Part shown: positions 42,416-63,085 of the stretch, piece after piece
Numbering within the stretch: position 1 is the stretch's first letter
Layout: each line of letters opens with the position of its first letter
DNA from: Aquipluma nitroreducens
GTDB lineage: Bacteria; Bacteroidota; Bacteroidia; Bacteroidales; Prolixibacteraceae
NCBI RefSeq assembly: GCF_009689585.1
Contig: NZ_AP018694.1
Location: forward strand, 5,137,501-5,201,500
Direction: 5' to 3'
Length of the DNA stretch: 64,000 bases
Made by a program: the position numbers and the translations under genes
The notes under the pieces: model-generated
What the model saw: only the letters and a program-made list of their open reading frames with translations
Databases searched by the model: none
What the model was told of the DNA's origin: nothing

Positions 42416-42449
42416 TTTTCTTTCACTGAACCACCAAAGCCTCAAATCA

Positions 42450-44424: not shown

Positions 44425-44463
44425 TTGATCTTTTTTTACAAAATAAAACAAAATAAATAATAG

Positions 44464-44482
44464 AGTGCAAAAACATTGCACT
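44464..44482. promoter_or_regulatory. Palindromic operator between capW-like gene and CBASS
   Basis: AGTGCAA (44464-44470) and TTGCACT (44476-44482) are perfect inverted half-sites with a five-base spacer, and a third GTGCA follows at about 44485. The site is in the divergent intergenic region, 40 bases from the regulator start and 44 from the CBASS start, as expected for a dimeric WYL repressor. Confidence 0.6.
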
Positions 44483-44525
44483 AGGTGCATGAAACTTTGC
44501 TTCATTAATTCAAAAATAGTTTCAT

Positions 44526-45341
44526 ATGGAAGAGCGTCATACCCGGTTTTTGAATTTTTTCATATTAGTTAGTTTGCTCTTGGCAACGATAAACTCTAAG
44601 GGAAAACCTTACAATGCATCCCTATTAGGAGCGACAGTTGGCACAGCCATTAGTCTCATTTTGGCAACTGGAGGATGGATATTGAGCCACAGGAGTAATC
44701 TAAGGACAATTTTTACTGCAATATTCATTTGTAATCTAAGGTTATCGTGCAGCTATCTATATCGGATAAAAGTGGATGATCAGTATTTGCTAATTAAGAG
44801 CAGGAAACATGGGAAGTATCAACCTGTAGGTGGCAATTTTAAAAGGAATAAGTTCTCTCATGACACTTTACAAAAACTTGAAGTTAGAGACGATGATAAA
44901 TTCACCAATGGTCATCGTTCTAGTGATGATCTTCGCCTTTACATTCGGGGATACAGGCTTCCTCAATTCTTAAAATGGTATAATTCACCAAACAAAAAAC
45001 GTGAAGTAAGCTATGACCGCGAATTTTATGAAGAATTAGTTGAACCAGGTCACTTTTCTTCTGAGTTATTTAAGTATCCGATATTCAATTTTATAAAACA
45101 GGTTATTACTCCGGTTCGCTATTCAACGTACCTGAAATGTTATGAGGTTCACATTTATGATATAGTTGAATTAAATCCATCCCGCGATCAGCTTACTTTT
45201 CTTAAAGAGTTAATGCAAAAAGGTGATTGCAAAGAATTCAAATGGGCTACCAGCAATCTGATTCAAACTCAAGGTTATCAATCGCATACCCAGGATACAC
45301 CTTACGAAATTACTGATCATTCCATCGAAATTTTATCTTAA
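44526..45341 (+). CDS. CBASS effector: membrane protein with SMODS-associated NUDIX domain (Cap16-like)
   Basis: 271 residues. Two to three hydrophobic helices occupy the first 75 residues (FLNFFILVSLLLATI; SLLGATVGTAISLILATGGW). A NUDIX-like sensor domain follows, with YLLIKSRKHGKYQPVGGNFK as its characteristic start. In CBASS, TM-NUDIX effectors are thought to bind the cyclic nucleotide signal and damage the inner membrane to stop phage. The gene is first in the operon, 16 bases before the CD-NTase gene. Family assignment comes from the motif and the neighbouring genes. Confidence 0.8.
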   Translation: MEERHTRFLNFFILVSLLLATINSKGKPYNASLLGATVGTAISLILATGGWILSHRSNLRTIFTAIFICNLRLSCSYLYRIKVDDQYLLIKSRKHGKYQPVGGNFKRNKFSHDTLQKLEVRDDDKFTNGHRSSDDLRLYIRGYRLPQFLKWYNSPNKKREVSYDREFYEELVEPGHFSSELFKYPIFNFIKQVITPVRYSTYLKCYEVHIYDIVELNPSRDQLTFLKELMQKGDCKEFKWATSNLIQTQGYQSHTQDTPYEITDHSIEILS

Positions 45342-45357
45342 ATAAATATCAAAAATC

Positions 45358-46521
45358 ATGAAAAAATTAATCACAGAAGACAAGAAAGCTTTTTTGGATG
45401 ATATGTTGAAACGTATTACCGAAGCTTTACAGTTAAATGAAACCAGAAGAAAACTGGTAGAAGACCGTTATAAATCGGTCAGTATCTTCATTGAAGGGAC
45501 TCCTGGTTTATTCTTTGATGCAAAGATTTACTCCCAAGGTTCTTATCGGTTGGGAACAACGGTGAAACCGAGACAGGGAGAAGAATATGACCTGGATTTT
45601 GTTGTGCAGATTCATAAAAATTGGAAAACCTTGTCGTTTTCTGAAGTGTACAACTCGTTCAAAGATTTAATTGAATCGGATGATCGTTGGAAGGATTTAG
45701 TGATTGAGAAACCAAGGTGTATCAGGTTAAACTATGCGGATGAGTTTCACATGGATATTATTTCTACCTGTACAGAAAATATACAAGGAGATATTAACAG
45801 GATAATGGTACCTGATAGAGCTGAACATCGCTGGGGTATCAGCAATCCGGAAGGATACGCTTTGTGGTTTGAGAAAAAGTACATTGCTCAACGTAACATC
45901 TATTTGAGTGATTTTTATCCGGGAATGGAGTTTCGAGCAGCTCTGGATTTACCCAAAGATGATCCAAATTACCTAAAACAACCATTGCAACATGCTGTCC
46001 AATTGATCAAGCGGTATCGGGATGTTTATTTTGAAAAGCAAATGGAAATGGCCCCGTCAAGCATTGTTCTTACTACATTGGTTGCTAAAATGTATGAAGG
46101 CGAAAACTCAATTTATGAGACCATTCAAAAAGTAGTTGAACGATTTAGAATGGCTGTTGAAACTGATAAATTGTATTATCGGCAATTCCACGTTTCAAAT
46201 CCGGTTTTGCCGGATGAAATTTTTACCAAAGAATGGGATAAAAATCCGAGACTCTTCGATGCTTTTGTTCTATTTATGAAGTCCCTTTATGAGTTTTGGG
46301 AAAAACTTCATACTTCAACAGGGCCCGATTTATTCAATCTTTTAAAGGACAATTTTGGAACTGGAGCTTTTGATTCTGCATATAAATCACAAGGCTTATT
46401 TATGCAATCATTAAGAGATAAGGGCTATACTGGTATTATTAAAGGAACTGGAATGGCAGGGATTGGAGCAGGCCATCAAATTCAAAAAGATAGACCAAAT
46501 ACTTTTCATTCCGATGAATAG
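45358..46521 (+). CDS. CBASS CD-NTase (cGAS/DncV-like nucleotidyltransferase, SMODS)
   Basis: 387 residues. The nucleotidyltransferase signature is complete: GSYRLGT (61-67), the metal-binding DLD (78-80) in EEYDLDFVVQ, and the third Asp133 in FHMDIIS. On sensing phage such enzymes make a cyclic di- or trinucleotide that activates the effector encoded upstream. The product and clade cannot be called by eye. The C-terminus overlaps the E2-like gene by eight bases. In this CBASS class an E2-like protein regulates the nucleotidyltransferase by acting near its C-terminus. Confidence 0.9.
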   Translation: MKKLITEDKKAFLDDMLKRITEALQLNETRRKLVEDRYKSVSIFIEGTPGLFFDAKIYSQGSYRLGTTVKPRQGEEYDLDFVVQIHKNWKTLSFSEVYNSFKDLIESDDRWKDLVIEKPRCIRLNYADEFHMDIISTCTENIQGDINRIMVPDRAEHRWGISNPEGYALWFEKKYIAQRNIYLSDFYPGMEFRAALDLPKDDPNYLKQPLQHAVQLIKRYRDVYFEKQMEMAPSSIVLTTLVAKMYEGENSIYETIQKVVERFRMAVETDKLYYRQFHVSNPVLPDEIFTKEWDKNPRLFDAFVLFMKSLYEFWEKLHTSTGPDLFNLLKDNFGTGAFDSAYKSQGLFMQSLRDKGYTGIIKGTGMAGIGAGHQIQKDRPNTFHSDE

Positions 46522-46927
46522 TGCAAATCTAATCTTACAGGAGCAGATGAAGTCCATTCGAGCCAATTGTCCTAATTGGAAATGTTGGATTCATAACAAA
46601 GATTCTCTGATTCTGGAAGGAGATATTCAGCCAACAATTGTAAGTCCACATTATAAGGCACGAATTTCTTATCAGCAAGGGCTAAATCCGGAAGTCAATA
46701 TTATTGAACCTGAATTAAAATTGTATCCGGGTAAAAATTCATTACCTCATGTTTATAGCAAGTCGGGAGCTCCCTTGTGCCTTTTCTTCTTTCATGAATA
46801 TGATACCAGAAAAGATCATTTGGCTGAGACTATAATTGTTTGGATAACCTGGTGGCTCTATTTTTATGAAATTTGGTCACAGACCGGCGAATGGGTTGCC
46901 ACAGGAACTCATCCCGGAAGGTGGTAA
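46514..46927 (+). CDS. CBASS E2-like (ubiquitin-conjugase fold) regulator
   Basis: 137 residues from the ATG overlapping the CD-NTase stop. The likely catalytic Cys is Cys89 in SGAPLCLF. The C-terminal block WWLYFYEIWSQTGEW and ATGTHPGRW is typical of the E2-like proteins of short type II CBASS operons, which lack the separate E1/JAB protein. No E1-like or JAB gene is found here. It is expected to act on the neighbouring CD-NTase. The operon ends with a strong terminator directly after it. Confidence 0.8.
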   Translation: MNSANLILQEQMKSIRANCPNWKCWIHNKDSLILEGDIQPTIVSPHYKARISYQQGLNPEVNIIEPELKLYPGKNSLPHVYSKSGAPLCLFFFHEYDTRKDHLAETIIVWITWWLYFYEIWSQTGEWVATGTHPGRW

Positions 46928-47088: not shown

Positions 47089-47298
47089 ATGAACAGAATC
47101 AAAGAAGTCCTTGAATTAAAAAGGATTAAGCAAATATGGTTGGCGGAGAAGCTTGGAAAAAGTTTCAACATGGTGAATGCTTATGTCCAAAATCGGAGGC
47201 AGCCAAGTATTGAAATTTTGTACCAGATTGCTGATATTTTAGAGGTAGATGTGAAAGAGCTATTGATTAGCCGGAATGAACCAAATATCAAGAAATGA
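47089..47298 (+). CDS. Small XRE-family regulator leading the BREX operon
   Basis: 69 residues, almost entirely a Cro/C1-type helix-turn-helix (IKQIWLAEKLGKSFNMVNAY; SIEILYQIADILEVDVKELL). Its stop overlaps the brxA start (ATGA), so it is the first gene of the BREX operon and probably autoregulates it. Many type 1 BREX loci use a WYL regulator in this place. Here the WYL protein is further upstream. Confidence 0.85.
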   Translation: MNRIKEVLELKRIKQIWLAEKLGKSFNMVNAYVQNRRQPSIEILYQIADILEVDVKELLISRNEPNIKK

Positions 47299-47897
47299 TC
47301 GGGAGAAACTTAAAATATAATGGCACATTTTCATCTAACGGAATCCTGTTTAATGAAACCATCAGTCTTGTCCAAATTTTGAAAAGCGACAATGTAGAGG
47401 AGTTTCTGGCCAAAGAAGTCAAAGAGAACAATCTGCTGCAAATTAATTCGGAAGCAACCAGAGGAAGGGCTGTACGTGAAATCAGGAAAAGAAACAAATA
47501 TACAGAAACCAGCTTTTGGGATCGTTTTGATCAAAGTACAGAACCCGAACAAAGGTTATTATTCTTCTACTTGTGCCTAAAAACTTACAGAATACTATTT
47601 GATCTCCATTTCCTGGTTACTGTCAAACGATTCTATATTGATTCTACACTGCCGGAAACTTTTTATTACAAAATGGCAGTTGATGAACTTGCATCCGAAA
47701 ATGAAAAAGTTGCAGCGTGGTCTGAAACAACATTAAAGAAAACACTTTCAAATTACCGGAGTTTATTACGGGTTTCAGGACTATTAAAAGGCGATATGCT
47801 TACCTCGCCCAATGTAGATGAATCCTTTTGGGATCAGTTTAAAACGAATTGCGAATTGTGGTTTTTGGAAGCTTGTTTTCAACCGATAAATAAATGA
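47295..47897 (+). CDS. brxA: BrxA (DUF1819 family)
   Basis: 200 residues, the normal BrxA size. It has the helical NusB-like pattern and the block TEPEQRLLFFYLCLKTYRIL. BrxA is a small DNA-binding component of type 1 BREX, and its place before brxB and brxC is canonical. It is translationally coupled to the XRE gene. Confidence 0.9.
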   Translation: MIGRNLKYNGTFSSNGILFNETISLVQILKSDNVEEFLAKEVKENNLLQINSEATRGRAVREIRKRNKYTETSFWDRFDQSTEPEQRLLFFYLCLKTYRILFDLHFLVTVKRFYIDSTLPETFYYKMAVDELASENEKVAAWSETTLKKTLSNYRSLLRVSGLLKGDMLTSPNVDESFWDQFKTNCELWFLEACFQPINK

Positions 47898-47901
47898 TGC
47901 A

Positions 47902-48495
47902 ATGACGATTACCGAGTTATACGAACGAATGAGCAATAAAGAGTTTCAGGATCCGGCAACAGGAAATCTGTTTTCAAATGCCTACATGTATCTTTATCCT
48001 CCAGAAAATGAGAATCAAATTCATGATGAGATTTTAGTAATCAAGGAACGGTTGAAAAGGCCTAATAATTATCTGGATGTGCTCATTCTGGATATATTCG
48101 ACTTGTTTTGCGCTTTTCTTAAGCAAAAGAAATTCGGACCAAAAACTTTGTTTGATTTCTTTCTGGAAAAAGAATTGCAGGCTCCCGGAAAGGTCAATGA
48201 ATCGTTGATCAGGGAAGCAAAAAGCGATGGATTCTTTGAGTTCATGAATGCAAACATCAAATTGCACTTTTCAGAAGGCGATACGGATAAAAAAGTCTAT
48301 GTGATCATCCATGGTTTTGGTTCAGTTTTTCCATACCTGAGGACCAGCAAGTTTTTAAGTAATTTCGAGAAATACTTTATCGGAGAAAAATATAAGTTAA
48401 TACTTTTTTACCCGGGCGAAGTGAAGGATTTTTATAGCCTCTTTAATCTGTTAAACGATGAAAATCCATATCGGGCAATCAAACTAATCAACTAA
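47902..48495 (+). CDS. brxB: BrxB (DUF1788 family)
   Basis: 197 residues. The conserved C-terminal part VIIHGFGSVFPYLRTS and KLILFYPGEVKDFYSLFNLL identifies DUF1788. The biochemical role is not settled. It is required for BREX and probably contacts BrxC or PglZ. Four bases separate it from brxA. Confidence 0.9.
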   Translation: MTITELYERMSNKEFQDPATGNLFSNAYMYLYPPENENQIHDEILVIKERLKRPNNYLDVLILDIFDLFCAFLKQKKFGPKTLFDFFLEKELQAPGKVNESLIREAKSDGFFEFMNANIKLHFSEGDTDKKVYVIIHGFGSVFPYLRTSKFLSNFEKYFIGEKYKLILFYPGEVKDFYSLFNLLNDENPYRAIKLIN

Positions 48496-48514: not shown

Positions 48515-51500
48515 ATGCAACTATCTGAAATCTTTGAACGGAAAATAGATCGAGTTATAAATTCCGCTGTTGTTGTCAGTAATCAGAAGGAAGCTACTGT
48601 ACAGGCCGAAATTACGGAATACGTTTTTACTTCTGACTTAATTGAAAAACTGTACTACTTTCTGGATACTGTTCTGAATAAAAAAGTAGGGAAAACAGGT
48701 ATCTGGATAAACGGATATTATGGGTCAGGTAAATCTCACTTTATTAAATATGCCCACTATTGTTTGGATTCAGCTAATTCGGCAAAGGCATTTGAACACT
48801 ATCGCCTCAATGTGGAAAAGCATCAAAAGGAAAATGATTTGAGTGAGGTAACTGTTTCTAATGTGTTACAACTGAAGCGAAAGATAGAACAAACGCACAT
48901 TGAAAACATCATCTTCAATGTGGAGGATGAAACGGATGATGGAAGCGGAGAACGATTGACGCGCATCTTTCTGAGCATGTTAAACCGGTTCAGAGGATAT
49001 AACTCAAGTGACATTCCACTGGCCATTCTATTTGAAAAATACCTTGACAAAAAAGGAGTCTTTGCGGAATTTAAAACCCGCCTTCAGGAAGAATCCGGGT
49101 ATAATTGGGAAACTCAGGCTGCTGATGTTGCTTCGTATGAATTAGATACCATCCTCAAACTGTCTAAATCATTGGTTCCTGAAATGGATACTGACTCTTT
49201 GCGTGTTAAGCTTTCCAATCCTGAGACCTTCCGGGTAACGATTAAAGATACCTTGATTCCTGAGTTAAAGGACTATTTGGCTGAAAAAGACAACAATTAC
49301 CGCCTGATCTTTCTGGTGGATGAAATCTCGCAGTACATTGGAAATAACAAAGAGCTTTTGCTGAATTTCCAAAATATCATTGAGCGGGTTAGTGAAGACT
49401 GCGACAACCAGGTATGGATTGCTTGTACTGCCCAGCAATCGTTGGATGAAGTTTCTGAAAATGTTGGTTCCATTGACGTAAATGATGAATTTGGAAAAAT
49501 CCTCGGTAGGTTCGATACCCGAATTTCGCTTGAAAGTGCGGATGCTTCGTACATTACCCAGGTCAGGGTTTTGGAGAAAAATTCGACCGGGATTAAAGAA
49601 CTATCGGAACTTTATCACAGTAATCAGGATGCCATCGAAAACCAGTTTAAACTTCATCATGATTTATACAAAGGCTACAATGAAATGGATGATTTCATCC
49701 TGGCCTACCCTTTTGTGCCCTATCAATTCAAATTAATCTCGCATGTCTTTGAATCATTTCAGGGCCTGAAGTTTGTAATAAAGGAAGTGAAGGACAATGA
49801 GCGTTCGATATTGAGCATTACCCATTATACTGCCAAAGCGCACAAGGACGAGGAAGTTGGCACCTTTATGCCATTTGACGCATTTTATAACGATCAATTC
49901 TCATCAAACCTAACCCAACGCGGACGAAGGGCCATCGAGAACGCTTTAAAACTTCCATCGGTAGAAAAAAATGGGTTTGCTACCCGGGTGGTAAAAAACC
50001 TGTTTATGATTTCCAATCTGAAAGATTCCATTCGTCTGACTTTTCCTTCAAATCTGGATAACCTGACGATTTTGATGATGACGAATCTGGACGAAAATAA
50101 ACTTCAGCTTCAGAACAAGATTAAAGCGGTATTGGACAAATTGCTGGAGGAAAGTATTATCCGGGAGGAACGGGGAAATTATTTCTTCTTCAATGAAGAT
50201 GAAATGGACCTGACCAATATCATCAAAGACACGATCCTGAACGGCGAGGACCGGCTAACCGAGGCAGACCGTTTTATTCGAAGTCTGTTGAAAATTGAAA
50301 GCAAGGAGCGATATGAATCGAACGATTTTAAGGTTGCTTATGAAATTGATAAGAAATTCTTTTTGCGCAATGGCGATGTCTCTGTGTCGGTTATCCTATT
50401 CGAAAGGCAAGCGGCAACGCAATTGGCGCTTGGCAACAGCATCAGCAATCTTTCCATCTGCATAAACGAATGGTTTACTGCCGATAAACAATTAATGAAA
50501 GATTTTGAGTGGTTCTGTAAGAATGTCAAATACTTCATGAATAACTCCGGATCAAGTACCGGCGAACGCCTGAAAACAATTGAAACATTTAAGCTGCGGA
50601 ACAAAGAGCTAAATGATAAGATCACAAAAAAGATTACCGATAAATTTGCTGAGACCAATTTTGTAAGCGGTCAAACTATTATTGAACCAGATGCAATTAA
50701 TGGCTCGAAACCCAATGAACGCTACAAAAATCTGATTGCCAAACACATTGGTATGGTGTACAAACACCACAAGTTAAGCAACGGATACGCATTAACAGCC
50801 AACGATCTACGGAAAGTGGTGCGCGATAAGCAAACAACCAACTTTAACGATTTGACACCGGCAGAACAGATGGTTGAAGATCACATTGCCAACATGGGTG
50901 GAATCTTGACTGTTGCCGACATTATTCAGAAGTTCGAAGGAATTCCGTTTGGCTGGAAAGATGTGGCAACCATTCACATGATTCTAGAGCTCAACCGGAA
51001 GAAAAAACGTGAACTGGAATACCGCAACCAACCACGTTACAAAGCCGTTGATTTTGTAGAAAAAGCATTGAATACCAACGAACGTACTGCGTGTGTGGTG
51101 CGCGATGGTGAAGAAATTTCGCAGGCTGTGATTGATGAAACCTTATTGTACTACCGGAATATATTTAATCAGGATTTGCCTGCCACAACCGATGGAAACC
51201 GGTTGTATGACAATATCAATGAGAGCCTTTCGAAAATATACGATACGTACAACGAGTTTCAGGAAACGTATTATGGCAGGTATCCGTTTGGAATTCATTT
51301 CAATTCACTGTGTCAGAAATTAGACAGTTGGATCAAAATAAGGGATCCAAAACGCCTGTTCGTAGTTTTAAAAGACGAGCAGGATGATTTAAAAAACCTA
51401 TACGATCAATGCAAATCGTTGGTCGAATTCATTGGCCGGGCAATGGATGCCTACAACAGCATCCAGGGTTTTTATACTGAAAATAAAGAAAATTTCAGCA

Positions 51501-52036
51501 GTCTTGAACCTGCAGAACAGGACAAAGCCGATTCGTTGGGAGAATTTTTCCGATCTGATGATCCTGCCCGAAGTTTCAGGCACATTCGGAAAGCTTACGA
51601 CGAGCTAAAAGCATCAATTCAGCAATTAAAAGACGCCCTATTGAATGAAACCGTGGCTGCTTACGAACAGATATTTGCCGAATTGGATAGTGAAGCTAGG
51701 AATCTAGGAGTTACCGAAAGTCATATTTACGGAGATAAAGAATATAACCTGACTCGTATCCGCAAGCTTAAATCAATCACTTCTATCCGGTATGAACTAT
51801 CGAATGCCGCATCGTTTAAAAGCGAACAGTTGCGCCTGATTATTGATTTTGCCTCCAAAAAGAAGCCCGATCAAAGCAAAGGTCAAGCATCTGCGGTTGG
51901 AGAGCCAAAGGAATATTACATTTCAAAGTTAGCCACGGTAATCCGCAACGAAAAAGAACTGGATGATTACCTGGCCAAAGCAAAGTTGGAAATGCTGGCT
52001 TTGTTGAAAGAGAAAAAAACAATCATTATCAAGTAG
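48515..52036 (+). CDS. brxC: BrxC ATPase
   Basis: 1,173 residues. Walker A is GYYGSGKSH (67-75) and Walker B is LIFLVDE (264-270). The long helical C-terminal part (about 850-1130) includes coiled-coil-like stretches. Length and motifs match the large P-loop protein BrxC of type 1 BREX, needed both for methylation and for phage blocking. It is intact, with no frameshift. Confidence 0.93.
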   Translation: MQLSEIFERKIDRVINSAVVVSNQKEATVQAEITEYVFTSDLIEKLYYFLDTVLNKKVGKTGIWINGYYGSGKSHFIKYAHYCLDSANSAKAFEHYRLNVEKHQKENDLSEVTVSNVLQLKRKIEQTHIENIIFNVEDETDDGSGERLTRIFLSMLNRFRGYNSSDIPLAILFEKYLDKKGVFAEFKTRLQEESGYNWETQAADVASYELDTILKLSKSLVPEMDTDSLRVKLSNPETFRVTIKDTLIPELKDYLAEKDNNYRLIFLVDEISQYIGNNKELLLNFQNIIERVSEDCDNQVWIACTAQQSLDEVSENVGSIDVNDEFGKILGRFDTRISLESADASYITQVRVLEKNSTGIKELSELYHSNQDAIENQFKLHHDLYKGYNEMDDFILAYPFVPYQFKLISHVFESFQGLKFVIKEVKDNERSILSITHYTAKAHKDEEVGTFMPFDAFYNDQFSSNLTQRGRRAIENALKLPSVEKNGFATRVVKNLFMISNLKDSIRLTFPSNLDNLTILMMTNLDENKLQLQNKIKAVLDKLLEESIIREERGNYFFFNEDEMDLTNIIKDTILNGEDRLTEADRFIRSLLKIESKERYESNDFKVAYEIDKKFFLRNGDVSVSVILFERQAATQLALGNSISNLSICINEWFTADKQLMKDFEWFCKNVKYFMNNSGSSTGERLKTIETFKLRNKELNDKITKKITDKFAETNFVSGQTIIEPDAINGSKPNERYKNLIAKHIGMVYKHHKLSNGYALTANDLRKVVRDKQTTNFNDLTPAEQMVEDHIANMGGILTVADIIQKFEGIPFGWKDVATIHMILELNRKKKRELEYRNQPRYKAVDFVEKALNTNERTACVVRDGEEISQAVIDETLLYYRNIFNQDLPATTDGNRLYDNINESLSKIYDTYNEFQETYYGRYPFGIHFNSLCQKLDSWIKIRDPKRLFVVLKDEQDDLKNLYDQCKSLVEFIGRAMDAYNSIQGFYTENKENFSSLEPAEQDKADSLGEFFRSDDPARSFRHIRKAYDELKASIQQLKDALLNETVAAYEQIFAELDSEARNLGVTESHIYGDKEYNLTRIRKLKSITSIRYELSNAASFKSEQLRLIIDFASKKKPDQSKGQASAVGEPKEYYISKLATVIRNEKELDDYLAKAKLEMLALLKEKKTIIIK

Positions 52037-52048
52037 AAAAATCTGTAA

Positions 52049-55000
52049 ATGAATACCAGTCAGCTAAAGACCTTTGCCCAAAAGGCACGAAATATCATTC
52101 GCGATGGAGTATCCCGACAACTGAAATACTGGGGTTTTGATGAAAAGGGAAATGTGGAATGCCGCCCCGAAAAAGTAGAAGGCGGCATTGTTCACCGCGA
52201 AGAAATCATTGATGACCCTTCGGTGATGAAACGTTGGGAAACCTTGAACCATGCGGTTAAGCATCAGGGATTCGATCAGGTGGTGGAAGAAGCAGCTTAT
52301 ACCTGGTTTAACCGGATGATGGCCATTCGTATTTTGTCGAAAAACGGTTACGATGTACCTCAATTGGAATATGGCGCCGATGGGGCACAAACACCGCTGA
52401 TTCTGCAACGGGCCCGTCGCGGACAGTTTGCCTTTTTGAACAAAGAAGAGCAAACCCGACTGAAACTGGTCTTGACGGATTACTCCAAAGACACCCAGGC
52501 CTTTGCTATTTTGCTCACTGGTTATTGCCATTCTCATTCGTTGCTCAACAGTATTTTTGGTCGCTTAGATGATTATACCGAATTGCTGCTTCCGGCAGAT
52601 ATGCTGAACGAAAACGGTTTTATTCATTTCCTGAATACCACATCAGCCATTTCAGACGACGATTACCGGCAAGTAGAATTGATTGGATGGTTGTACCAGT
52701 TTTATATTTCGGAGAAGAAAGATCAGGTATTTGCCCAGTTTAAAAAGAACCAGAAAGCTGAAGCCAAAGACATTCCGGCAGCTACCCAGATTTTTACTCC
52801 CAACTGGATTGTGAAATACATGGTGGAAAACACAGTGGGTAAGATTTGGCTCGATAAACATCCCGGCTCTCCATTGAAAGCCGGGTTGAAGTATTTGGTT
52901 GAAAGCCCTGACCAGCCGTTAGGTGACCCACTAATTAGCGAGATATCCCAATTGAAATTGCTGGATCCGGCTGCAGGCTCCGGCCATATTTTGGTGGAAG
53001 GCTTTGAGTTGTTATTCCAGATGTATTTGGAGGAGTATTACATGCCCGAAGAAGCGGTGGAAAGCATTTTGAAAAACAACCTGTTTGGTTTGGACATTGA
53101 CCTGCGTGCAGCCCAATTGGCCCGGTTTGCCATCTTGATGAAAGCTGCTTCGAAATACCCGGAGATCCTCCAAAAGAATATTTTACCTAAGGTGTACGCC
53201 ATGCCTGCACCTTGGAATTTTAGCCGACAGGAAATATTGGATTTTCTGGGCAGTGAAGGCAGACCCTATGAAGAAAAGCTAAGCGATGCCCTGCAATTGA
53301 TGCAACAGGCGCAGAACCTGGGTTCGGTAATGAAATTTGACTTTTTTGTAGATGAACGAAGTTTTATCGTGGCTCGTTTGGAAAACCTCAAAAATAAAGT
53401 CTTTCGCGATAATCTGGAAGAAGTGCTGCTGCAAAAAATTGCACCGTTTATAGAAGTGCTGGTGATTTTGACTGACCGCTATGAATCCATTGCAGCCAAT
53501 CCTCCTTACATGGGCAGTGGCAATATGAACGGGGAATTAAAACAGTATGTCAATTCAAACTACCCTCTCTCCAAAACCGACTTGATGACTGTTTTTATGG
53601 AGGTTACCTGTGATTTGATTAAAGATAATGGTCAGGTTGGAATGATTAACCTGCCATCCTGGATGTTTCTATCTTCATTTGAAAAAATGAGGCAAAAATT
53701 TGTTGAATCATTTCTAATTACAAGCCTAATCCAGCAAGGAAGAGGAATATTTGGGTCTGATTTTGGTTCAGTTTCATTCTGTTTTTCAAGAGAAAATCCT
53801 GATGGTAAGAAAGGTGTTTATCGAAGACTTTTTAAGGAACATGTTAAAGTTGATTCTGTTGCAGAAAAAGAAAAGCGGTTTTTAGATAAGTCGTATGGAC
53901 TTTTTATTTTTAAGCAATCAAACTTCTCAAAAATACCAGGAAGCCCGATTGCTTATTGGGTGACTGAGAAAGTTGGTGATTTGTTTTTTCAAGATAAAAT
54001 TAAAAAATATGGGATTTCAGATGGCCAAAATATAACTGGGGACAATGAAAAATATATAAAGTTCATCTGGGAAGTAAATGGAAAAAAAATTGGAAAAGGA
54101 TTTAAATGGGTTCCCGTTGCGAAAGGCGGTTCATTCAGAAGATGGTACGGGAATATTATAGATCTGATTGACTGGTCTGAAGAAGCTAGAAATTTCTATC
54201 GAAAAAATACAATCGCAAGGATTCAAGATAAATCATTATGGTTCAGGCCAGGTGTAACATGGAATTTGATAAGTAGTGGAGGAACTGGTTTTAGAATATT
54301 AGAAGAAAGTGTCCTTTTTAATAAAGCAGCACCGACAATTCTTTTTAATGAGAATAACATTGAAAAGTTAAATTTCGTTTTAGGCTTTCTAAATACAAAA
54401 TTAGTTAAGGATTTGCTTAAAATATTAAATCCAACTATCAATACCAATATTGCAGAAATACTAGTTTTGCCTTTAATTGAAAAACGATTAAATTTAATTG
54501 AGCAAAAGGTTAAAGATTGTATTTATATTTCTCAAAAAGACTGGAATAGCAGAGAGATTTCTCTTTGTTTTGAGGAAACACCACTTATTAATCAAGCCCA
54601 ATCTTTATCTCAAGCATTTCTAAAATGGCAAGAAGGGGTAAGAAACGTCTTTTTTCAATTACATTTCAATGAAGAAGAACTCAATCAGATATTCATTGAT
54701 ATTTACGGGCTTAACAACGAGCTTGATCCCATTGTGCCTCTAAAAGACATTACCATTTTACAGGACGAGTTGGATGAAAAAGGCTTGGAGAAAACAGACA
54801 AAGCTATACGCAAACGCCGACAATGGAAATTGGTGGAGGACAAATGGCTACTGTCTGTGGACGAAAGTAAACCTTTACCTGAATTACCCATAAAGCGCGA
54901 TGTGGTAATGAAACAACTGGTTTCGTATAGCATTGGTTGTATGATGGGCCGTTACCGGTTGGATCAGCCCGGGCTGCACATTGCCCATCCCAACCCAACA

Positions 55001-55609
55001 CACGAGGAGGTTTGCACCTACGACTTCAACGGACACGAATTTGAAATTGATGATGATGGTATTATCCCGTTAATGGGTTCCAACTGCACGTTCGCCGATG
55101 ATGCGGTCAATCGTTTTAACCATTTTCTGGAGATAGTTTGGGGAGCCGAAACACTCACCCAAAACAAAAACTTTCTGGTGGATTGTTTAAATCTGAAAAC
55201 TGAAAATCAGGAAATTGAAAAATACCTGGTGAAGGATTTCTGGAAAGACCATTGCCAAACCTACAAAAAGAAGCCCATCTACTGGCTCTTTGCGTCAGCG
55301 AAAGGCGCATTTCAGGTATTGGTGTATATGCACCGAATGAATCGCTTTACAGCAGAAAAGATTCGCTCCAAATACCTGCTGAAACACCTTCAGTATTTGC
55401 TACAGGAAATCGGCTTACTGGAAAGTATGAGCGGCCTCGCGCGCGAGGAACAAAAACGTCTAGATACCCTTCATACACATTACGATGAATGTGTGCCCTA
55501 CGAGCTGCTACTAAAAGATTGTGCCGACCGCCAAATTGAATTTAATATGGACGATGGTGTAACGGTTAATTATGAATTGTTTAAAGGGGTGGTTGCGCCA
55601 ATAAAATAA
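52049..55609 (+). CDS. pglX: PglX adenine-specific DNA methyltransferase
   Basis: 1,186 residues. S-adenosylmethionine motif I is LLDPAAGSGH (304-313) and catalytic motif IV is NPPY (484-487). The N-terminal helical region and the large C-terminal target-recognition part (from about 520) fit PglX. It methylates the BREX site on the host DNA and also takes part in defence. Base composition dips to AT-rich between about 53650 and 54650, over the presumed recognition region. That suggests domain exchange there, as is known for specificity regions. Confidence 0.94.
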   Translation: MNTSQLKTFAQKARNIIRDGVSRQLKYWGFDEKGNVECRPEKVEGGIVHREEIIDDPSVMKRWETLNHAVKHQGFDQVVEEAAYTWFNRMMAIRILSKNGYDVPQLEYGADGAQTPLILQRARRGQFAFLNKEEQTRLKLVLTDYSKDTQAFAILLTGYCHSHSLLNSIFGRLDDYTELLLPADMLNENGFIHFLNTTSAISDDDYRQVELIGWLYQFYISEKKDQVFAQFKKNQKAEAKDIPAATQIFTPNWIVKYMVENTVGKIWLDKHPGSPLKAGLKYLVESPDQPLGDPLISEISQLKLLDPAAGSGHILVEGFELLFQMYLEEYYMPEEAVESILKNNLFGLDIDLRAAQLARFAILMKAASKYPEILQKNILPKVYAMPAPWNFSRQEILDFLGSEGRPYEEKLSDALQLMQQAQNLGSVMKFDFFVDERSFIVARLENLKNKVFRDNLEEVLLQKIAPFIEVLVILTDRYESIAANPPYMGSGNMNGELKQYVNSNYPLSKTDLMTVFMEVTCDLIKDNGQVGMINLPSWMFLSSFEKMRQKFVESFLITSLIQQGRGIFGSDFGSVSFCFSRENPDGKKGVYRRLFKEHVKVDSVAEKEKRFLDKSYGLFIFKQSNFSKIPGSPIAYWVTEKVGDLFFQDKIKKYGISDGQNITGDNEKYIKFIWEVNGKKIGKGFKWVPVAKGGSFRRWYGNIIDLIDWSEEARNFYRKNTIARIQDKSLWFRPGVTWNLISSGGTGFRILEESVLFNKAAPTILFNENNIEKLNFVLGFLNTKLVKDLLKILNPTINTNIAEILVLPLIEKRLNLIEQKVKDCIYISQKDWNSREISLCFEETPLINQAQSLSQAFLKWQEGVRNVFFQLHFNEEELNQIFIDIYGLNNELDPIVPLKDITILQDELDEKGLEKTDKAIRKRRQWKLVEDKWLLSVDESKPLPELPIKRDVVMKQLVSYSIGCMMGRYRLDQPGLHIAHPNPTHEEVCTYDFNGHEFEIDDDGIIPLMGSNCTFADDAVNRFNHFLEIVWGAETLTQNKNFLVDCLNLKTENQEIEKYLVKDFWKDHCQTYKKKPIYWLFASAKGAFQVLVYMHRMNRFTAEKIRSKYLLKHLQYLLQEIGLLESMSGLAREEQKRLDTLHTHYDECVPYELLLKDCADRQIEFNMDDGVTVNYELFKGVVAPIK

Positions 55610-55617: not shown

Positions 55618-58152
55618 ATGCTAAAAGAACGAATAGAACAATATTTTCAGCAATACCCACAACTTCGGGTACTCTTCTTTTTTGACGAAGAAAAGGAGCA
55701 CGAGGAGGAATATCTCGCGATGGATTTGGAGGGAATCCGTAAAGTGACATTTGACAACCGGAACTTCTACCTGAAAGTGATGCTTCACGGAGAATGGTCG
55801 GCTGAGAGAGTCTTTCTTTACTTTCAGCAACCCATGCCCTCCACTCAGGATGAGTACCGGCATTTTCCTTTGCTCGATTTACTGGTTGCTAACAAGGTTT
55901 TGTACCTCGACAATGTAGCCGATTTTATGGATCAGTTTCAACTGGCACCCAACCAACGTTCATTAGCCAAACGATACATCAAAGAGTTAACGCGTACACC
56001 AATACAAAAGGTAGTCGCACCATTACTGACCCGAACCCGTTTCGAAGAATCGGAATTGGTAATTGGATTGATCTCTGCATTCCTGAGATTCACTAAAATT
56101 GAACGCTGGGAAACCATTCTGGCTAAAATTTTGTGCCTTGGTTTGCCCGGACAGGAGGAAAACAGGGATTATTTTTTCAGGAAAATCGATGCAAACATCC
56201 TTTATCCTTTCCTGGTTCAGCCTATCCGTGATTATTTCAATACTACTCTCGAAGAACTTAATCAACAAACCCTGATTGAACTTCAAAACCGCTTGAAATA
56301 CAACCTGATCACTTATACGTTGGATGAAAAACCAGATGATCCTTACAAAAACTTAAAAATTCAGGATGGGGTGGTATTGTCCATGCTCAGCAATTTGAGC
56401 GAGAGTGCCTTGAATAATCCGAAGTTGGCCGATCAATTTCTTCAACTGTTGGAATCAAACGACAGCCAAATCAAAGAAGAAACCCTACTTCAAATCTATG
56501 GCTCCGAATCAGAGTTTGGCTACCTGACCACCTTCATGAAATGGAAAATCTTAAGTTCAGGAATTCGTGAAATTGATTTCAAACCCCAAACCGCATTACA
56601 GGTATTCGAGCGGGTTTCCATGTTTCGTGAAAACACTGTCCAATTGTCAAATACAGTTCGGTTTTTAATCTATCTGGCCAATATCAATAGTCAACTGAAT
56701 GAAATCTCTGGTTACATCTACGATTCGCCTGACGAGTACATTGAAAAATACGCTCAGGATTTCTACCGGATTGATCAAAATTACCGCAAGGCCATTGATT
56801 TCTATCGGTCAGTTGATGTTTCAGAATTACCCGATTTTATTCAGTTGGATCCGTTGAAAGATTTGCTGGAGGACCGGTACGAAAGCTTCCTGGAGAAATT
56901 GAACCGGGAGTGGCTGAAATGTTTTTCGGAACAAGGGTTTAGCTATGCAAATCTCGCTACACCAAAGCAATACGATTTTATCAAACGTGAAATCGTGCCT
57001 TATGAGCTGAAGATAGTTGTGATCATCTCGGATGCCCTGCGTTACGAATCGGCCATGAGCTTGCTCTCCGAGCTTCATGGTGACAGCAAAAACGAAGCGG
57101 TCATTCGGCATCAATTGGCTTCAATTCCATCGACCACTCAATTCGGTATGGCCAATTTACTAACAACCAAAACGATCAATCTAAAAGATGCAGAATTGTT
57201 TATTGACGATGTCAGTACAGAGGGTTTGGCAAACCGGTCAAAAATATTGAAGAAGCACGTTCAGGACGCACAGGTTTTTGCTTACGCCGAGATTGAAGGT
57301 AACTCGCAACAAGCCAACCGTGATATTTTCAAGTCGTCGCTTGTCTATATTTATCACGATTGCATTGATGCCGTGGGTGATAAACGACCATCGGAACGCA
57401 ATTCATTTAAAGCGGTCGCCGATGGAATTGCTGAACTGGCAGCAATGGTGAAGAAATTACATTCGTCGTACAATGTGTCCCGTGTTATTATTACCGCCGA
57501 TCATGGTTTTATATACAACGACCGCACAATCAAAGAGGCAGACAAAGAACCGTTAAACGAAGAAGGTGCAATACTTACACACAATAGGTACGCAATAATC
57601 AAAAATGACCGGAAACAAGATTTAGGTTACAAAATACCATTAAAGCAAACCAATCGGATTGATTCTGATTTATTTGTACTCGTACCAAAGTCGGTCAACC
57701 GGTATAAAAAACAAGGAGTTGGACATCAGTTTGTACACGGTGGGGCCAGCTTGCAGGAATTGATTGTGCCGGTAATTGAAAGTACCCGTAAACGGACTGA
57801 GGTAATCAAAAAAGTGAAGCCCGTATTGATCAGCAAAAACCTTCGGGTGGTTTCAAATATTCTGCGCATTCAAATTCTTCAGGACCAACGAGTATCCAGG
57901 AATGAAAAAGAAAGGGAAATTCTGGTTGGGCTTTATCGTGATTTGGAATTGGTGTCGAATCAGGTAACCATTCAAATGAGTTCAACTTCTGAATTACCCA
58001 GTGAACGAAGCTATGGTTGTGAGTTGATGCTCCGGGGCGATATTGGGAATATTAGCATGTTGAAGCTGAAAATTTACGACAAGGACGATGAATTGAATCC
58101 GTTAATCATTCAGGAGGTAATCAATAACACCTTAATTGAGTCTGATTTTTGA
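55618..58152 (+). CDS. pglZ: PglZ (alkaline-phosphatase-superfamily BREX protein)
   Basis: 844 residues. The phosphatase-type metal site appears as VVIISDALRYES (Asp472) and IITADHGF (Asp628, His629). The N-terminal 400 residues are the helical PglZ extension. PglZ defines BREX and forms complexes with PglX and BrxB. It starts nine bases after pglX. Three cargo genes stand between it and brxL. Confidence 0.93.
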   Translation: MLKERIEQYFQQYPQLRVLFFFDEEKEHEEEYLAMDLEGIRKVTFDNRNFYLKVMLHGEWSAERVFLYFQQPMPSTQDEYRHFPLLDLLVANKVLYLDNVADFMDQFQLAPNQRSLAKRYIKELTRTPIQKVVAPLLTRTRFEESELVIGLISAFLRFTKIERWETILAKILCLGLPGQEENRDYFFRKIDANILYPFLVQPIRDYFNTTLEELNQQTLIELQNRLKYNLITYTLDEKPDDPYKNLKIQDGVVLSMLSNLSESALNNPKLADQFLQLLESNDSQIKEETLLQIYGSESEFGYLTTFMKWKILSSGIREIDFKPQTALQVFERVSMFRENTVQLSNTVRFLIYLANINSQLNEISGYIYDSPDEYIEKYAQDFYRIDQNYRKAIDFYRSVDVSELPDFIQLDPLKDLLEDRYESFLEKLNREWLKCFSEQGFSYANLATPKQYDFIKREIVPYELKIVVIISDALRYESAMSLLSELHGDSKNEAVIRHQLASIPSTTQFGMANLLTTKTINLKDAELFIDDVSTEGLANRSKILKKHVQDAQVFAYAEIEGNSQQANRDIFKSSLVYIYHDCIDAVGDKRPSERNSFKAVADGIAELAAMVKKLHSSYNVSRVIITADHGFIYNDRTIKEADKEPLNEEGAILTHNRYAIIKNDRKQDLGYKIPLKQTNRIDSDLFVLVPKSVNRYKKQGVGHQFVHGGASLQELIVPVIESTRKRTEVIKKVKPVLISKNLRVVSNILRIQILQDQRVSRNEKEREILVGLYRDLELVSNQVTIQMSSTSELPSERSYGCELMLRGDIGNISMLKLKIYDKDDELNPLIIQEVINNTLIESDF

Positions 58153-58199: not shown

Positions 58200-59378
58200 A
58201 TGATACTATCAGAACAAAAGTTAGTTATTGAATTACGAAAAGCATTTGATAATGCGAAATCACGTATTTGGATTGCTGTTCCGTTTATTGGTTCATGGAA
58301 TCTAGTTGAACGGATAACTGGTATAAGTTGGGTTGCCAAAAGGAATATTGATTTTAGATTATTGACGGATATTAGCAATGAACATTTCATTGATTCAAAA
58401 ACATATCAGAAATTCAAACAGCAGGCTGAATGCAAAACACTTGAAGGATTACACGCCAAGATTTATATTATTGATAACTTCATCTTATTAACGTCAGCAA
58501 ATCTTACTGGTACTGCATTCTCGAAAAGGTATGAAATTGGAATAACATTAAATAACGACCAGGATGTAGTTAGAACATTTCTCAAATGGTGGAATATAGC
58601 AAAGACTATTGATAAGGATTGGCTTCCATCGAAGAGTGATAATGGAGCAAAAAATGAAGAACCTGAGGCGTATAATATTTCAAAACTAAAGAAACTTTGG
58701 AAACTGCCTAAAAGTCCCCAAACCGGCAATGATTTCAAAGAATATTTCAACACACTTCGCTATTATAACAATTTCACCAGGCTGTATGAAGTACATGCAG
58801 AAAGGTTATTAGTCGATTTGCCAATATATCAGGAAGTTGATTCATTTCTTAATTATTTGTTTCATGAGCATCCTGATAAGCCATCAAGTGAATACCTCGA
58901 AAAAGGGAACAGAGAATTAACTGAAAAAGGAAGAATCTCCGAATTGAAGAAATACTTTACTCAGTACAAAAACTGGCTTTCTGATCATCCAACCTTTGAA
59001 AACCATAGAATTGATAATATTAAAACGATTCAGCTCAAATTATCAAAATCTAAGATTGACAAACTAAAACAAGAAGACATTGAATTAGTTATAAATAGTC
59101 TTCATTGCATGAAAAGTTTAGCACTTAATAGAGCAAAGTTTTTAAATCAACAAAACAACAAAATAGAGATCATAATTCAGAGCTGGAAAGATTTGTTGCA
59201 TAATGATGAGACTGACTTGCCTAAAAGAATGCAAACTTGTAAAAACAATCTTTACTCGTTCGGAAAATCATCGATTAGTGAATTGCTAGCATGGTATTAC
59301 CCGAATCAATATCCATTAATAAACAGGAATTCAAATAGTGGTATGAAATTCTTTGGATATGATATAGAAACATATTGA
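58200..59378 (+). CDS. Phospholipase-D-family protein with a single HKD motif, nested in BREX
   Basis: 392 residues. The N-terminal half has a PLD fold with one catalytic motif, LHAKIYIID (His85, Lys87, Asp92), and TSANLTG after it, so two subunits would make the active site, as in BfiI-like nucleases. The C-terminal 220 residues are helical, Lys-rich and not recognised. The gene is in line with pglZ (47 bases) and ahead of the AbiE pair. An accessory nuclease role, like other effectors found inside BREX loci, is inferred. Confidence 0.75.
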   Translation: MILSEQKLVIELRKAFDNAKSRIWIAVPFIGSWNLVERITGISWVAKRNIDFRLLTDISNEHFIDSKTYQKFKQQAECKTLEGLHAKIYIIDNFILLTSANLTGTAFSKRYEIGITLNNDQDVVRTFLKWWNIAKTIDKDWLPSKSDNGAKNEEPEAYNISKLKKLWKLPKSPQTGNDFKEYFNTLRYYNNFTRLYEVHAERLLVDLPIYQEVDSFLNYLFHEHPDKPSSEYLEKGNRELTEKGRISELKKYFTQYKNWLSDHPTFENHRIDNIKTIQLKLSKSKIDKLKQEDIELVINSLHCMKSLALNRAKFLNQQNNKIEIIIQSWKDLLHNDETDLPKRMQTCKNNLYSFGKSSISELLAWYYPNQYPLINRNSNSGMKFFGYDIETY

Positions 59379-59380
59379 AT

Positions 59381-59415
59381 TTTTGTAACAAATATTTGCT
59401 AAATTTGTTACAAAA
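59381..59415. promoter_or_regulatory. Palindromic operator of the AbiE pair
   Basis: TTTTGTAACAAAT (59381-59393) and ATTTGTTACAAAA (59403-59415) are perfect 13-bp inverted arms. Each arm is itself nearly palindromic (TTTGT-A-ACAAA). The site sits between the PLD gene stop and the AbiEi start. AbiEi antitoxins are known to bind inverted repeats in their promoters. Confidence 0.75.
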
Positions 59416-59431
59416 TAAAAACATAAAAACA

Positions 59432-60031
59432 ATGCAAAGCATTGAGAAACAAATAGAAGATAAGATAAAAGATGATGCTAAGGGTACATTGTTATTTCCG
59501 GAGGACTTTCAACAGCTGGGATCTTCAGAGGCTGTGCGTTTGGCTTTGCATCGCATTGAAAAAAGAGAAATCATTCGAAGAGTCGCTCATGGAATATATG
59601 TACGCCCAAAAGAAAGTTCATATATAGGAGAAGTTATGCCTACAGCAGAAGAAGTTGCTGAAGGTATTGCTAAAAGAGATAAAATAAGAATTGTTCCAAC
59701 GGGTGTATATGCATTGCATGCATTGGGCTTAAGCACACAGATACCATTAAAGCTAGTCTTTTTAACAGATGGGGCAGCACGTACTATAAAAGTCGGCAAA
59801 AGAACCATAAAACTGAAAAGGACTACACCCAAAAACCTGTTGGCTAAAGGTAAAATTAGTTCTTTAGTGATTCAGGCATTGCGCGAAATTGGTATAGACA
59901 AGGCAAGCCCAACTGAATTAAAGCAAATCCTTAAACTATTAAAAGAAGAGGACCTGCAACTATTAAAACATGATATTAAACTGGCACCGGAATGGATTAA
60001 GCAAATTATGAAAAAAGCAATTGATGGATAA
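59432..60031 (+). CDS. AbiEi-type antitoxin/regulator (DUF6088)
   Basis: 199 residues from ATG 59432. The earlier possible start at 59375 would translate through the operator. The N-terminal winged helix (about 18-70, AVRLALHRIEKREIIRRVAH, GIYVRPK) and the antitoxin C-terminal part (GVYALHALGLSTQIPLKLVF) fit the DUF6088/AbiEi group. It would repress its own promoter. The stop overlaps the toxin start by eight bases. Confidence 0.85.
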   Translation: MQSIEKQIEDKIKDDAKGTLLFPEDFQQLGSSEAVRLALHRIEKREIIRRVAHGIYVRPKESSYIGEVMPTAEEVAEGIAKRDKIRIVPTGVYALHALGLSTQIPLKLVFLTDGAARTIKVGKRTIKLKRTTPKNLLAKGKISSLVIQALREIGIDKASPTELKQILKLLKEEDLQLLKHDIKLAPEWIKQIMKKAIDG

Positions 60032-61031
60032 ATTTTACTATATACCTGACGATGCTAAAGCTGAAATTCTCCGGAATACTGGTGAAAAAACGAACCTCCC
60101 TGCCTATGCTGTCGAAAAAGACTGGTGGGTCGTTCAAACACTTTCTATTCTTTTTGAAACGGAAATCGGGAAACACATGGTGTTTAAAGGAGGTACATCA
60201 CTAAGCAAAGCCTGGGGTCTGATTGAACGATTTTCGGAAGATATTGATTTGGCTGTTGATCGTAGATTCTATGGGTTCGAGGGTGATTTAGGGAAAAAAC
60301 AACGGACAAATCTTCGGAAAAAAGCAAATACTTACATTACAGAACAGCTTTATCCGGAACTAAACTTCCGTTTTAAGGAAAAGGGAGTTGACGTTAAGCT
60401 TGAATTGGAAGAAATAACTACGAGTGATCAGGATCCGATAATCATACTTGTAAATTATCCCAATGTAATCGAATCGCCTGGTTACTTAAGACCAAGGGTT
60501 CAGGTAGAATTAGGATGCCGGTCGCTGATTGAGCCGTTTTCAATTCGCACTTTCAATTCATTTTTGGATGAAATGTATCCTGATGCTTCATTTGCAAAGC
60601 AGCCTATTCATATTCCAACTGTTGATCCCGAACGTACCCTCCTTGAAAAAATATTTCTTTTACACGAAGAGTTTCAGCGTCCAGATATTAAGGTTAGGGT
60701 GGACCGAATGAGCCGTCATCTTTTTGATATTTACAAATTGGCGGCTTCTCCATTTGCTGAAAAAGCTCTATTAAATCAAGAGCTTTATGCTGAAATTGTA
60801 TATCATCGTCAATTGTTTACCAAGCTTGGGGGTGTCGATTATAGGCGGCATAATCCAGGAACGATTAATCCAATTCCACCTGTTCATTTGCTGGATGCCT
60901 GGAAAAGAGATTATTCAATCATGCAGGAACAAATGATATATGCCGATTCGCCAAGTTTTGATACTATGCTTGAGGCAATTAAAAACTATATCTCAAAAAT
61001 AAACCAGCTAGACTGGCAAATCATTGAATAA
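60024..61031 (+). CDS. AbiEii-type nucleotidyltransferase toxin
   Basis: 335 residues from ATG 60024. The nucleotidyltransferase motifs are FKGGTSLSK (54-62) and SEDIDLAVD (71-79), as in the AbiEii family. AbiEii enzymes act as type IV toxins that nucleotidylate RNA targets and cause abortive infection. The pair has its own operator, so it may be a self-contained module inserted into the BREX operon. Confidence 0.88.
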   Translation: MDKFYYIPDDAKAEILRNTGEKTNLPAYAVEKDWWVVQTLSILFETEIGKHMVFKGGTSLSKAWGLIERFSEDIDLAVDRRFYGFEGDLGKKQRTNLRKKANTYITEQLYPELNFRFKEKGVDVKLELEEITTSDQDPIIILVNYPNVIESPGYLRPRVQVELGCRSLIEPFSIRTFNSFLDEMYPDASFAKQPIHIPTVDPERTLLEKIFLLHEEFQRPDIKVRVDRMSRHLFDIYKLAASPFAEKALLNQELYAEIVYHRQLFTKLGGVDYRRHNPGTINPIPPVHLLDAWKRDYSIMQEQMIYADSPSFDTMLEAIKNYISKINQLDWQIIE

Positions 61032-61057: not shown

Positions 61058-63085
61058 ATGTCAACATTACAAGAGAAAATATTAACTCATTTTGAAGGGA
61101 AAGTTGTCAGGAAAGATTTAACCTCAAGGGTAAAAGGTAATGCGGTAGTTCCGGCATACGTGCTGGAATTTCTACTTGGTCAGTATTGCGCAATCAATGA
61201 CGAAGAAGTCATTAACAATGGGATTGAGAAAGTAAAAGATGTGATCAAAAACAACTTTGTCCATCGTGCTGAAGCTGAGTATGTAAAATCAACCATCAGG
61301 GAGAAAGGTTCTCATAAGATCATCGACAAGATATTTGTTACTCTGAATGATGATGACAATTTCTATGAGACTTCATTTGCCAATCTTGGAATTGACCATG
61401 TCGCTATTGCCGATTCAATTGTCAAAAAGCATAAAAAATTATTAAGTGGAGGAGGCGTCTGGTGTATTTTAACCATGGGTTATGATTCTTCCGATGGGAT
61501 CAAATCCAGATGGGTTATCGAAACCGTAAAACCTATTCAGGTTTCAGGAGTCGATTTGGAAGAAATAATCGAAAAACGACAGCATTTTGATACTGACGAA
61601 TGGATTGATTTACTAATGCATAGTATTGGATTAAATCCTGAATTCTTCAACCGGAGGGGAAAGCTAATTCAGTTATCAAGACTGATTACTCATGTTGAGA
61701 ATAACTATAACTTCATCGAACTTGGACCCAAAGGAACCGGTAAATCTCATGTGTTTTCAGAACTCTCGCCTCATGGAGTTTTAGTTTCAGGCGGCGATGT
61801 GACCAGTGCCAGGCTTTTTGTGAGCAATACTGGCAAAGGCAAAATCGGATTGGTTGGGTATTGGGATGTGATTTGCCTGGATGAATTTGAACAAGTGGTT
61901 GGCTCGAAACGTGCAGATGGCGACATGGTCAATATCATGCAAAATTACATGGCAAATAAATCATTCAACAGAGGAAAGGAAACCATTCAAGCCTATGCTT
62001 CAATGGCATTTGTGGGCAATACTAAGCACACTGTTCCTTTCATGCTTCGCGAGACACATCTTTTTGAATCCATCCCGGCAGCCTATATCAAAGGGGCTTT
62101 CCTCGATCGTATTCATCTTTATATTCCAGGATGGGAAGTCAATATCCTAAAGGAAAGTGTATTCTCTAAAGAGTTTGGGTTCATTGTTGATTATTTGGCT
62201 GAAATTCTGAAGCAGTTCCGGAAGTACGACTATACCAATCAGGTTGATCAGTATGTGGACTTTGATCCATCCTATACAGGCAGGGACAAATTGGCCATCC
62301 GGAAAACATTCTCAGGTCTGGTAAAGCTAATATACCCCAATAAGCATATGAGCGAAAAGGAAGCACTCGAACTGATTGATTTTGCAGTAGAAGGCAGGAA
62401 AAGAGTCAAGGATCAGCTTTACGTGATTGACGAAACCTTTAAAGATTCTCCTGTTGAATTCAGCTACAAAATCAATTCATCCAACAAAAAAATAAAGATA
62501 GAAACGCTTGAGAAGTTAAATGGAGAAATTTTTGATGGTGCTGCAGAAATCACTCCGACTGAAGATCCGGATAAATCAACAGTCAAGGCTGAAATAATTG
62601 CACCAGGACTTAAGGAGAAAGAAATCATTATCAGGGATAATCAAAAAGGAATCTCCTATAAAAAACTATTTGCCGAGTATCTTAAAGGTGCAACTGAAAT
62701 TACATTGACTGATCCATACATCAGACATCCACATCAATTCCGTAATTTGTTAGAATTCTGTTCGATCCTTATTCAAAATAAAAAGAAAGAGGAGGAAATC
62801 AGTTTGCACGTTGTCTCATGGAACGACGTAGAATATACGCCCATATCAACTGCCAACTTTGATGAAATTACGGAATCTTTGAGGGATTCAGGAATCATCT
62901 TCACCTACGAATTTCAGGATTTACATGATCGCAGCATTGTAGCCAATAATGGTTGGAAAATAAAACTTGGTCGCGGACTTGATATTTTCGAGAAGCCTGC
63001 CTTTCGTTTTGATATCTCGGAAGTGATGCAGGAACAACGGCAATGCCGAAATTGCGAGATAACGTATATTCGGCAAATTGACTGA
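61058..63085 (+). CDS. brxL: BrxL AAA+ protein with a MITD1-like (MIT_C) C-terminus
   Basis: 675 residues. Residues 1-460 are the BrxL core with Walker A ELGPKGTGKSH (221-231) and Walker B VICLDEFEQV (271-280). Instead of the Lon-protease region expected in the long BrxL form, residues about 540-672 read TEITLTDPYIRHPHQFRNLL, SLRDSGIIFTYEF, LHDRS and NNGWKIKLGRGLDIFEKP. That is close to the PLD-fold MIT_C domain of eukaryotic MITD1. No Ser-Lys protease dyad context was seen. It ends the BREX operon. The domain call is from motif memory and needs a profile search. Confidence 0.82.
   Translation: MSTLQEKILTHFEGKVVRKDLTSRVKGNAVVPAYVLEFLLGQYCAINDEEVINNGIEKVKDVIKNNFVHRAEAEYVKSTIREKGSHKIIDKIFVTLNDDDNFYETSFANLGIDHVAIADSIVKKHKKLLSGGGVWCILTMGYDSSDGIKSRWVIETVKPIQVSGVDLEEIIEKRQHFDTDEWIDLLMHSIGLNPEFFNRRGKLIQLSRLITHVENNYNFIELGPKGTGKSHVFSELSPHGVLVSGGDVTSARLFVSNTGKGKIGLVGYWDVICLDEFEQVVGSKRADGDMVNIMQNYMANKSFNRGKETIQAYASMAFVGNTKHTVPFMLRETHLFESIPAAYIKGAFLDRIHLYIPGWEVNILKESVFSKEFGFIVDYLAEILKQFRKYDYTNQVDQYVDFDPSYTGRDKLAIRKTFSGLVKLIYPNKHMSEKEALELIDFAVEGRKRVKDQLYVIDETFKDSPVEFSYKINSSNKKIKIETLEKLNGEIFDGAAEITPTEDPDKSTVKAEIIAPGLKEKEIIIRDNQKGISYKKLFAEYLKGATEITLTDPYIRHPHQFRNLLEFCSILIQNKKKEEEISLHVVSWNDVEYTPISTANFDEITESLRDSGIIFTYEFQDLHDRSIVANNGWKIKLGRGLDIFEKPAFRFDISEVMQEQRQCRNCEITYIRQID

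Follow-up and report, generated by a model that had tools for sequence, protein, structure and literature searches.

A BrxL of a Type-1 BREX operon with a MITD1-like MIT_C domain in place of the Lon-like tail

The BrxL proteins studied so far are AAA+ rings that bind DNA and load onto it in an ATP-dependent manner, and their Lon-like C-terminal domain, from which the protease residues are missing, joins two rings (PMC10164562). A second kind of tail has already been described. Of 2913 Type-1 BREX taxa with BrxL, 1030 have a protein whose Lon-like domain has given way to an "HKD-endoDNase", where Arg takes the place of Lys in what is then an HRD motif (Rakesh and Krishnan 2026, PMC12839542). 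The same study credits an earlier report for the HKD-type tail (its reference 74, the Menshen paper), and its nuclease assignment rests on sequence and structure analysis. A term search of its text returned no mention of MITD1, the human protein whose C-terminal domain, a membrane-binding PLD-like fold, must bind membranes for abscission to occur (PMC6015221). We describe here a BrxL with a MITD1-like tail.

The BREX operon and its BrxL

The analysed window, a stretch of 64,000 nucleotides of Aquipluma nitroreducens, holds a complete Type-1 BREX operon on the forward strand. It comprises brxA (47295-47897, PF08849 at 6.9e-23), brxB (47902-48495, PF08747 at 3.9e-19), brxC (48515-52036, NF033441 at 3.5e-200), the BREX-1 methyltransferase gene pglX (52049-55609, NF033452 with 1091 bits), a pglZ of BREX-1 type A (55618-58152, TIGR02687 with 335 bits for a cut-off of 270), a gene for an accessory PLD-domain protein, an AbiEi/AbiEii pair and brxL (61058-63085). 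The proteins by which Type-1 BREX is recognised, BrxA, BrxB, BrxC, PglX (BREX-1), PglZ type A and BrxL, are thus encoded in a single operon.

The 675-residue BrxL starts with a BrxL_N domain (residues 11-142, 61088-61483; PF20442 at 2.1e-45), followed by the AAA+ ATPase (residues 152-464, 61511-62449; PF13337 at 1.2e-121) with its Walker A motif GPKGTGKS at residue 223, and the normal BrxL core announced in the original prediction is indeed present. TIGR02688 gives 535 bits for a cut-off of 329, and the PADLOC model of BrxL (PDLC02508) spans residues 1-673 at 5.4e-270. The N-domain and ATPase are shared with Lon-type BrxLs: in a phmmer search of the PDB, the Acinetobacter structures 8emh and 8emc match at about 4e-127, with the alignment confined to residues 6-485. 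The two types differ in their C-terminal domain, an inactive Lon-like fold in the Acinetobacter protein and MIT_C in the window. The same search retrieved human MITD1 (2ymb, 4a5z) at about 1e-29.

The tail itself (residues 531-672, 62648-63073) matches the Pfam family MIT_C (PF16565) at 4.6e-43, with 147 bits for a cut-off of 25 and over profile positions 1-142 of 142; chance is excluded as the source of this match. The motifs from which the domain had been predicted are located at residues 552 (DPYIR), 607 (SLRDSG), 622 (LHDR) and 630 (NNGWKIKLGRGLDIF). Lon_C is absent from the Pfam matches of this BrxL at E <= 1. This absence is informative because the same profile method does find Lon_C, at 6e-16, in the Lon-like tail of a second BrxL of the same genome (L064 1033-3084, contig C1 near 3.06 Mb), which looks to adjoin another BREX locus.

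An AlphaFold2 model of the tail, generated with an alignment of 32 related sequences, is of high quality (pLDDT 94, pTM 0.90), and the predicted structure adopts the MITD1-like PLD fold, with a TM of about 0.86 and a Z of 22.4 over 151 residues against MITD1. The model of full-length BrxL is weaker (pLDDT 79), and residues 489-516 (62522-62605), with a pLDDT under 50, probably form a flexible linker between core and tail. Profile search and structure prediction thus agree with the original prediction that a MITD1-like MIT_C domain replaces the protease domain. We consider it close to certain that the gene encodes the BrxL of a Type-1 BREX operon, belonging to a known subtype in which a single MIT_C/PLD-fold tail takes the place of the inactive Lon-like domain.

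The likeness to the published Type-1 BrxLs with an "HKD-endoDNase" (PMC12839542; PDLC02508) covers the N-domain, the AAA+ core, the PLD-type H-x-R tail replacing the Lon-like one and the operon context; the window protein differs by an Asn at position 630, where most relatives have Asp. We infer that the published domain is MIT_C, because the H-x-R motif agrees and no other PLD-type tail was found.

Conserved site and possible roles of the tail

Canonical HKD enzymes carry the motifs HxKx4D and GSxN. The tail departs from this pattern, with HxRx4N and GRGLD instead, and its degenerate HKD motif (62921-62989, forward strand) reads L-H623-D-R625-SIVA-N630-NGWKIKL-GRGLD642-IF. In the predicted structure, H623 immediately precedes a beta-hairpin, an order that agrees with the HKD hairpin of PLD folds. 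Over 74 BrxL MIT_C domains, H623 and R625 are each kept in 73, and D642, Q560, R556 and R661 in all 74; at position 630, 62 of them have D and 11 have N, as does the window BrxL. Going beyond BrxL, the residues H623, R625, Q560, N563, R639, G640 and D642 are common to human MITD1 and to MIT_C domains fused to dynamin, IF2_N or Sel1 sequences, the dynamin-fused domain having an A at position 556. Nearly every family member examined has Arg where HxKx4D has Lys. Because H623, R625 and their companions are near-invariant, conservation says that the site, degenerate as its motif is, would be in use.

After MITD1, the structural matches of the tail are PLD-fold enzymes, with Z values of 8 to 10 at an identity of just 4-12%. 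They are headed by SauUSI, an ATP-dependent restriction endonuclease (Z 9.7), which is tied with phosphatidylserine synthase (9.5), and include NucT (8.6), the R-protein of NgoAVII (8.4), BfiI (8.2) and Nuc (8.1). Nuc, NucT, BfiI and SauUSI have in common with the tail the PLD fold and a histidine on the corresponding hairpin, and differ from it by HxK...GSxN, as known for their family, in place of HxR and GRGLD.

The near-invariance of H623 and R625 and the rank of PLD-fold enzymes directly after MITD1 in the structure list both support a nuclease, as do the published nuclease proposal (PMC12839542) and the DNA-loading ring of studied BrxLs (PMC10164562). The reading is weakened by the Lys-to-Arg change, by N630, by GRGLD standing for GSxN and by MITD1 being a membrane binder with the same residues. 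The net acidic character of the domain (-4) also counts against it; it is found in MITD1 and BrxL alike and by itself decides nothing. We rate the chances as about even that the tail is a PLD-type phosphodiesterase acting on DNA, and favour this role over a scaffold or a membrane anchor. Taken as a whole, a known BrxL subtype with its MIT_C tail as a DNA-acting phosphodiesterase is the best explanation, by a shade better than even chances.

With such a tail, the ATPase ring would load on unmodified phage DNA as the studied BrxLs do, the MIT_C/PLD domain presumably hanging on the flexible linker. Single-domain PLD enzymes pair up to build their active site. By analogy, each MIT_C domain could pair with one from another subunit or from a facing ring, and the resulting two-histidine phosphodiesterase site would nick or process phage DNA. 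With an active phosphodiesterase at this position, these BREX systems would have another nuclease in addition to PglZ.

A non-catalytic MIT_C is a serious contender to which we give somewhat less credit. The domain would join two BrxL rings or serve as a dock for a further BREX protein, and either a protein partner or a ligand that bears phosphate would bind at the invariant site. The studied BrxL offers a precedent, as its Lon-like tail has no activity either and brings the rings together as a dimer (PMC10164562). A structural role would also suit the degenerate HKD motif, the existence of tail-less BrxLs, the interchange of MIT_C and Lon-like tails among BrxL lineages and the identical residues of MITD1, known as a membrane binder (PMC6015221). 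However, the near-invariance of H623 and R625 in the 74 BrxL domains and in the dynamin, IF2_N and Sel1 fusions looks more like the mark of an active site than of a scaffold. The precedent also bears on the mode of action "rather than proteolysis" that had been proposed for this BrxL: the contrast is a false one, since the Lon-like tail of studied BrxLs is devoid of protease residues and serves to join rings (PMC10164562).

An improbable third role, drawn by analogy from MITD1, is the binding of membrane phospholipid, which would position BrxL at the membrane, for instance at the point of entry of phage DNA. It would fit with MITD1 binding membranes through MIT_C, as required for abscission (PMC6015221), with the identity of up to 51% between the human domain and BrxL MIT_C and with one bacterial MIT_C borne by a dynamin-family GTPase (L030). 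Against it, none of the partners encoded at the locus hints at a task at the membrane, BrxL is a ring that loads onto DNA, MIT_C is net acidic and the IF2_N and Sel1 fusions do not indicate membranes. Of the membrane-linked or nuclease-like action first proposed, the nuclease-like part is therefore plausible; the membrane-linked part finds no support in the locus and leans on the MITD1 analogy, with the MIT domain missing.

The RefSeq name of such proteins, "Lon protease-like", would suggest that the tail is a diverged Lon S16 protease domain wrongly assigned to MIT_C, but the name derives from the family and not from this tail. This reading is hardly conceivable: the missing Lon_C match at E <= 1, the positive L064 control and the MITD1 fold at Z 22.4 refute it.

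Kinship with human MITD1

Human MITD1 (2ymb, 4a5z) belongs to the same Pfam family as the window tail, has the same fold with a Z of 22.4, is about 40% identical to it and shares its H, R, N and GRGLD residues. The two proteins differ in their other parts: MITD1, an adaptor of ESCRT-III, has a MIT domain at its N-terminus and lacks an AAA+ motor, and the Pfam matches of the window BrxL include no such MIT domain.

The human domain is closer still to another group of BrxL tails, clade B, against which it reaches up to 144 bits, compared with about 105 for the window tail; it is 51% identical to one clade-B tail (L124). In a tree of the tails, unrooted and built on 158 columns with one eukaryotic sequence, MITD1 groups with clade B with a support of 100/94, or 100/100 once ten rows, mostly long-branched, are dropped. 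The placement of MITD1 with the clade of the window is rejected with a p-AU of 0.0066, or 0.0016 with the window pair, for groups that were named after the first tree had been seen. Examination of two clade-B loci showed that both are of the BREX type, with a PglZ of a different kind (PDLC02561) and a variant of PglX (PDLC02532).

This grouping suggests that genes were transferred between the lineages of BREX and of ESCRT. More specifically, the membrane-binding domain of MITD1 may have been acquired from the BrxL tail of a bacterial BREX system, or may have a close ancestor in common with it, with both proteins using H-x-R/GRGLD for one phosphate chemistry or ligand; we advance this scenario tentatively and hold it to be somewhat short of even chances. 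In a literature search on a bacterial origin of MITD1, none of the hits listed appeared to make this connection. If true, the kinship would connect an anti-phage motor with how an ESCRT-III cofactor arose, and whether MITD1 has an enzymatic site would have to be asked anew. It is the sole lead of more than routine interest for this gene.

Distribution of the tail and surroundings of the operon

The original prediction implied that the tail was an oddity, and counted a C-terminus shared with typical BrxLs as an argument against it. In 395 sampled Bacteroidota genomes, 25 BrxLs carry MIT_C, 14 are Lon-type and 8 are tail-less or truncated, and RefSeq calls some members "MIT C-terminal domain-containing protein". 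The BrxL core occurs in 320 plasmid records; the MIT_C tail was detected in 25, the match extending over most of the query in 24, and these records span Pseudomonadota, Actinomycetota and Bacteroidota and are nearly all BrxL. Searching IMG/VR with an alignment of the tails returned 32 loci, 31 of them in BrxL; an earlier scan of viral contigs with a single tail domain as query gave no match, nor did annotated phage records.

Together with the 1030 of 2913 taxa already published (PMC12839542), these counts lead us to reject rarity: the BrxL-MIT_C architecture is known and common, and the gene is ordinary. MIT_C tails are thus typical of BrxL in part, forming the majority in the Bacteroidota sample and about a third among Type-1 taxa overall. 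A literature search found no experiment on a BrxL with MIT_C, and the experimentally studied BrxLs that were found carry Lon-like tails, so that for roughly a third of the family the function of the tail is a predicted one.

A tree of the BrxL core (64 rows, unrooted) places MIT_C in a large clade, in a second clade (L032, L038, L083, L085 and L087) and on the long-branched L088. The tail label needs four changes on this tree, at least three of them forced by well-supported branches; one involves the long branch of L088, which leaves some doubt about the third case. This count does not support a single origin of MIT_C BrxLs. MIT_C and Lon-like tails appear, from the sequences, to have been swapped between BrxL lineages more than once, in a direction that needs a root.

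Other proteins also carry MIT_C. On a Thiodictyon plasmid (L030 6628-9471) it forms the C-terminus of a dynamin-family GTPase, on a Paenarthrobacter plasmid (L031 8413-9462) it is fused to an IF2_N domain, and in a Bacteroidota sequence (L039 6098-9307) to a long Sel1 repeat array. One further reading frame (L123 2294-4231) combines part of PglZ with a MIT_C of the BrxL type and lacks the ATPase; it is either a fusion created by a deletion or an artefact of assembly.

Within the operon, the accessory PLD-domain protein (58200-59378, forward strand), encoded between pglZ and the AbiE pair, has weak DrmC-like matches. Its canonical HKD motif (HAKIYIIDNFILLTSAN) makes it a candidate HKD nuclease already present in the BREX operon. 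The AbiEi-like antitoxin (DUF6088, 59375-60031) and the AbiEii toxin-family nucleotidyltransferase (60021-61031), both on the forward strand, directly precede brxL, and the order AbiEi-AbiEii-brxL(MIT_C) recurs in another phylum, on a Rhodococcus opacus plasmid (L074 1-1393).

Upstream of brxA lies a WYL regulator (43417-44505, reverse strand), and between the two a CBASS cassette (44526-46927, forward strand) with a SMODS cyclase, a 2TM effector with a SMODS-associated NUDIX domain and an E2-like protein; the cassette apparently sits inside the BREX island. Adjoining this defence island, upstream of the WYL regulator and the CBASS cassette, are a MobC-like protein and a MobA/VirD2-like relaxase (42047-43376, forward strand). 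The pair suggests a mobilisable element, and the arrangement would fit a defence island that is mobile.
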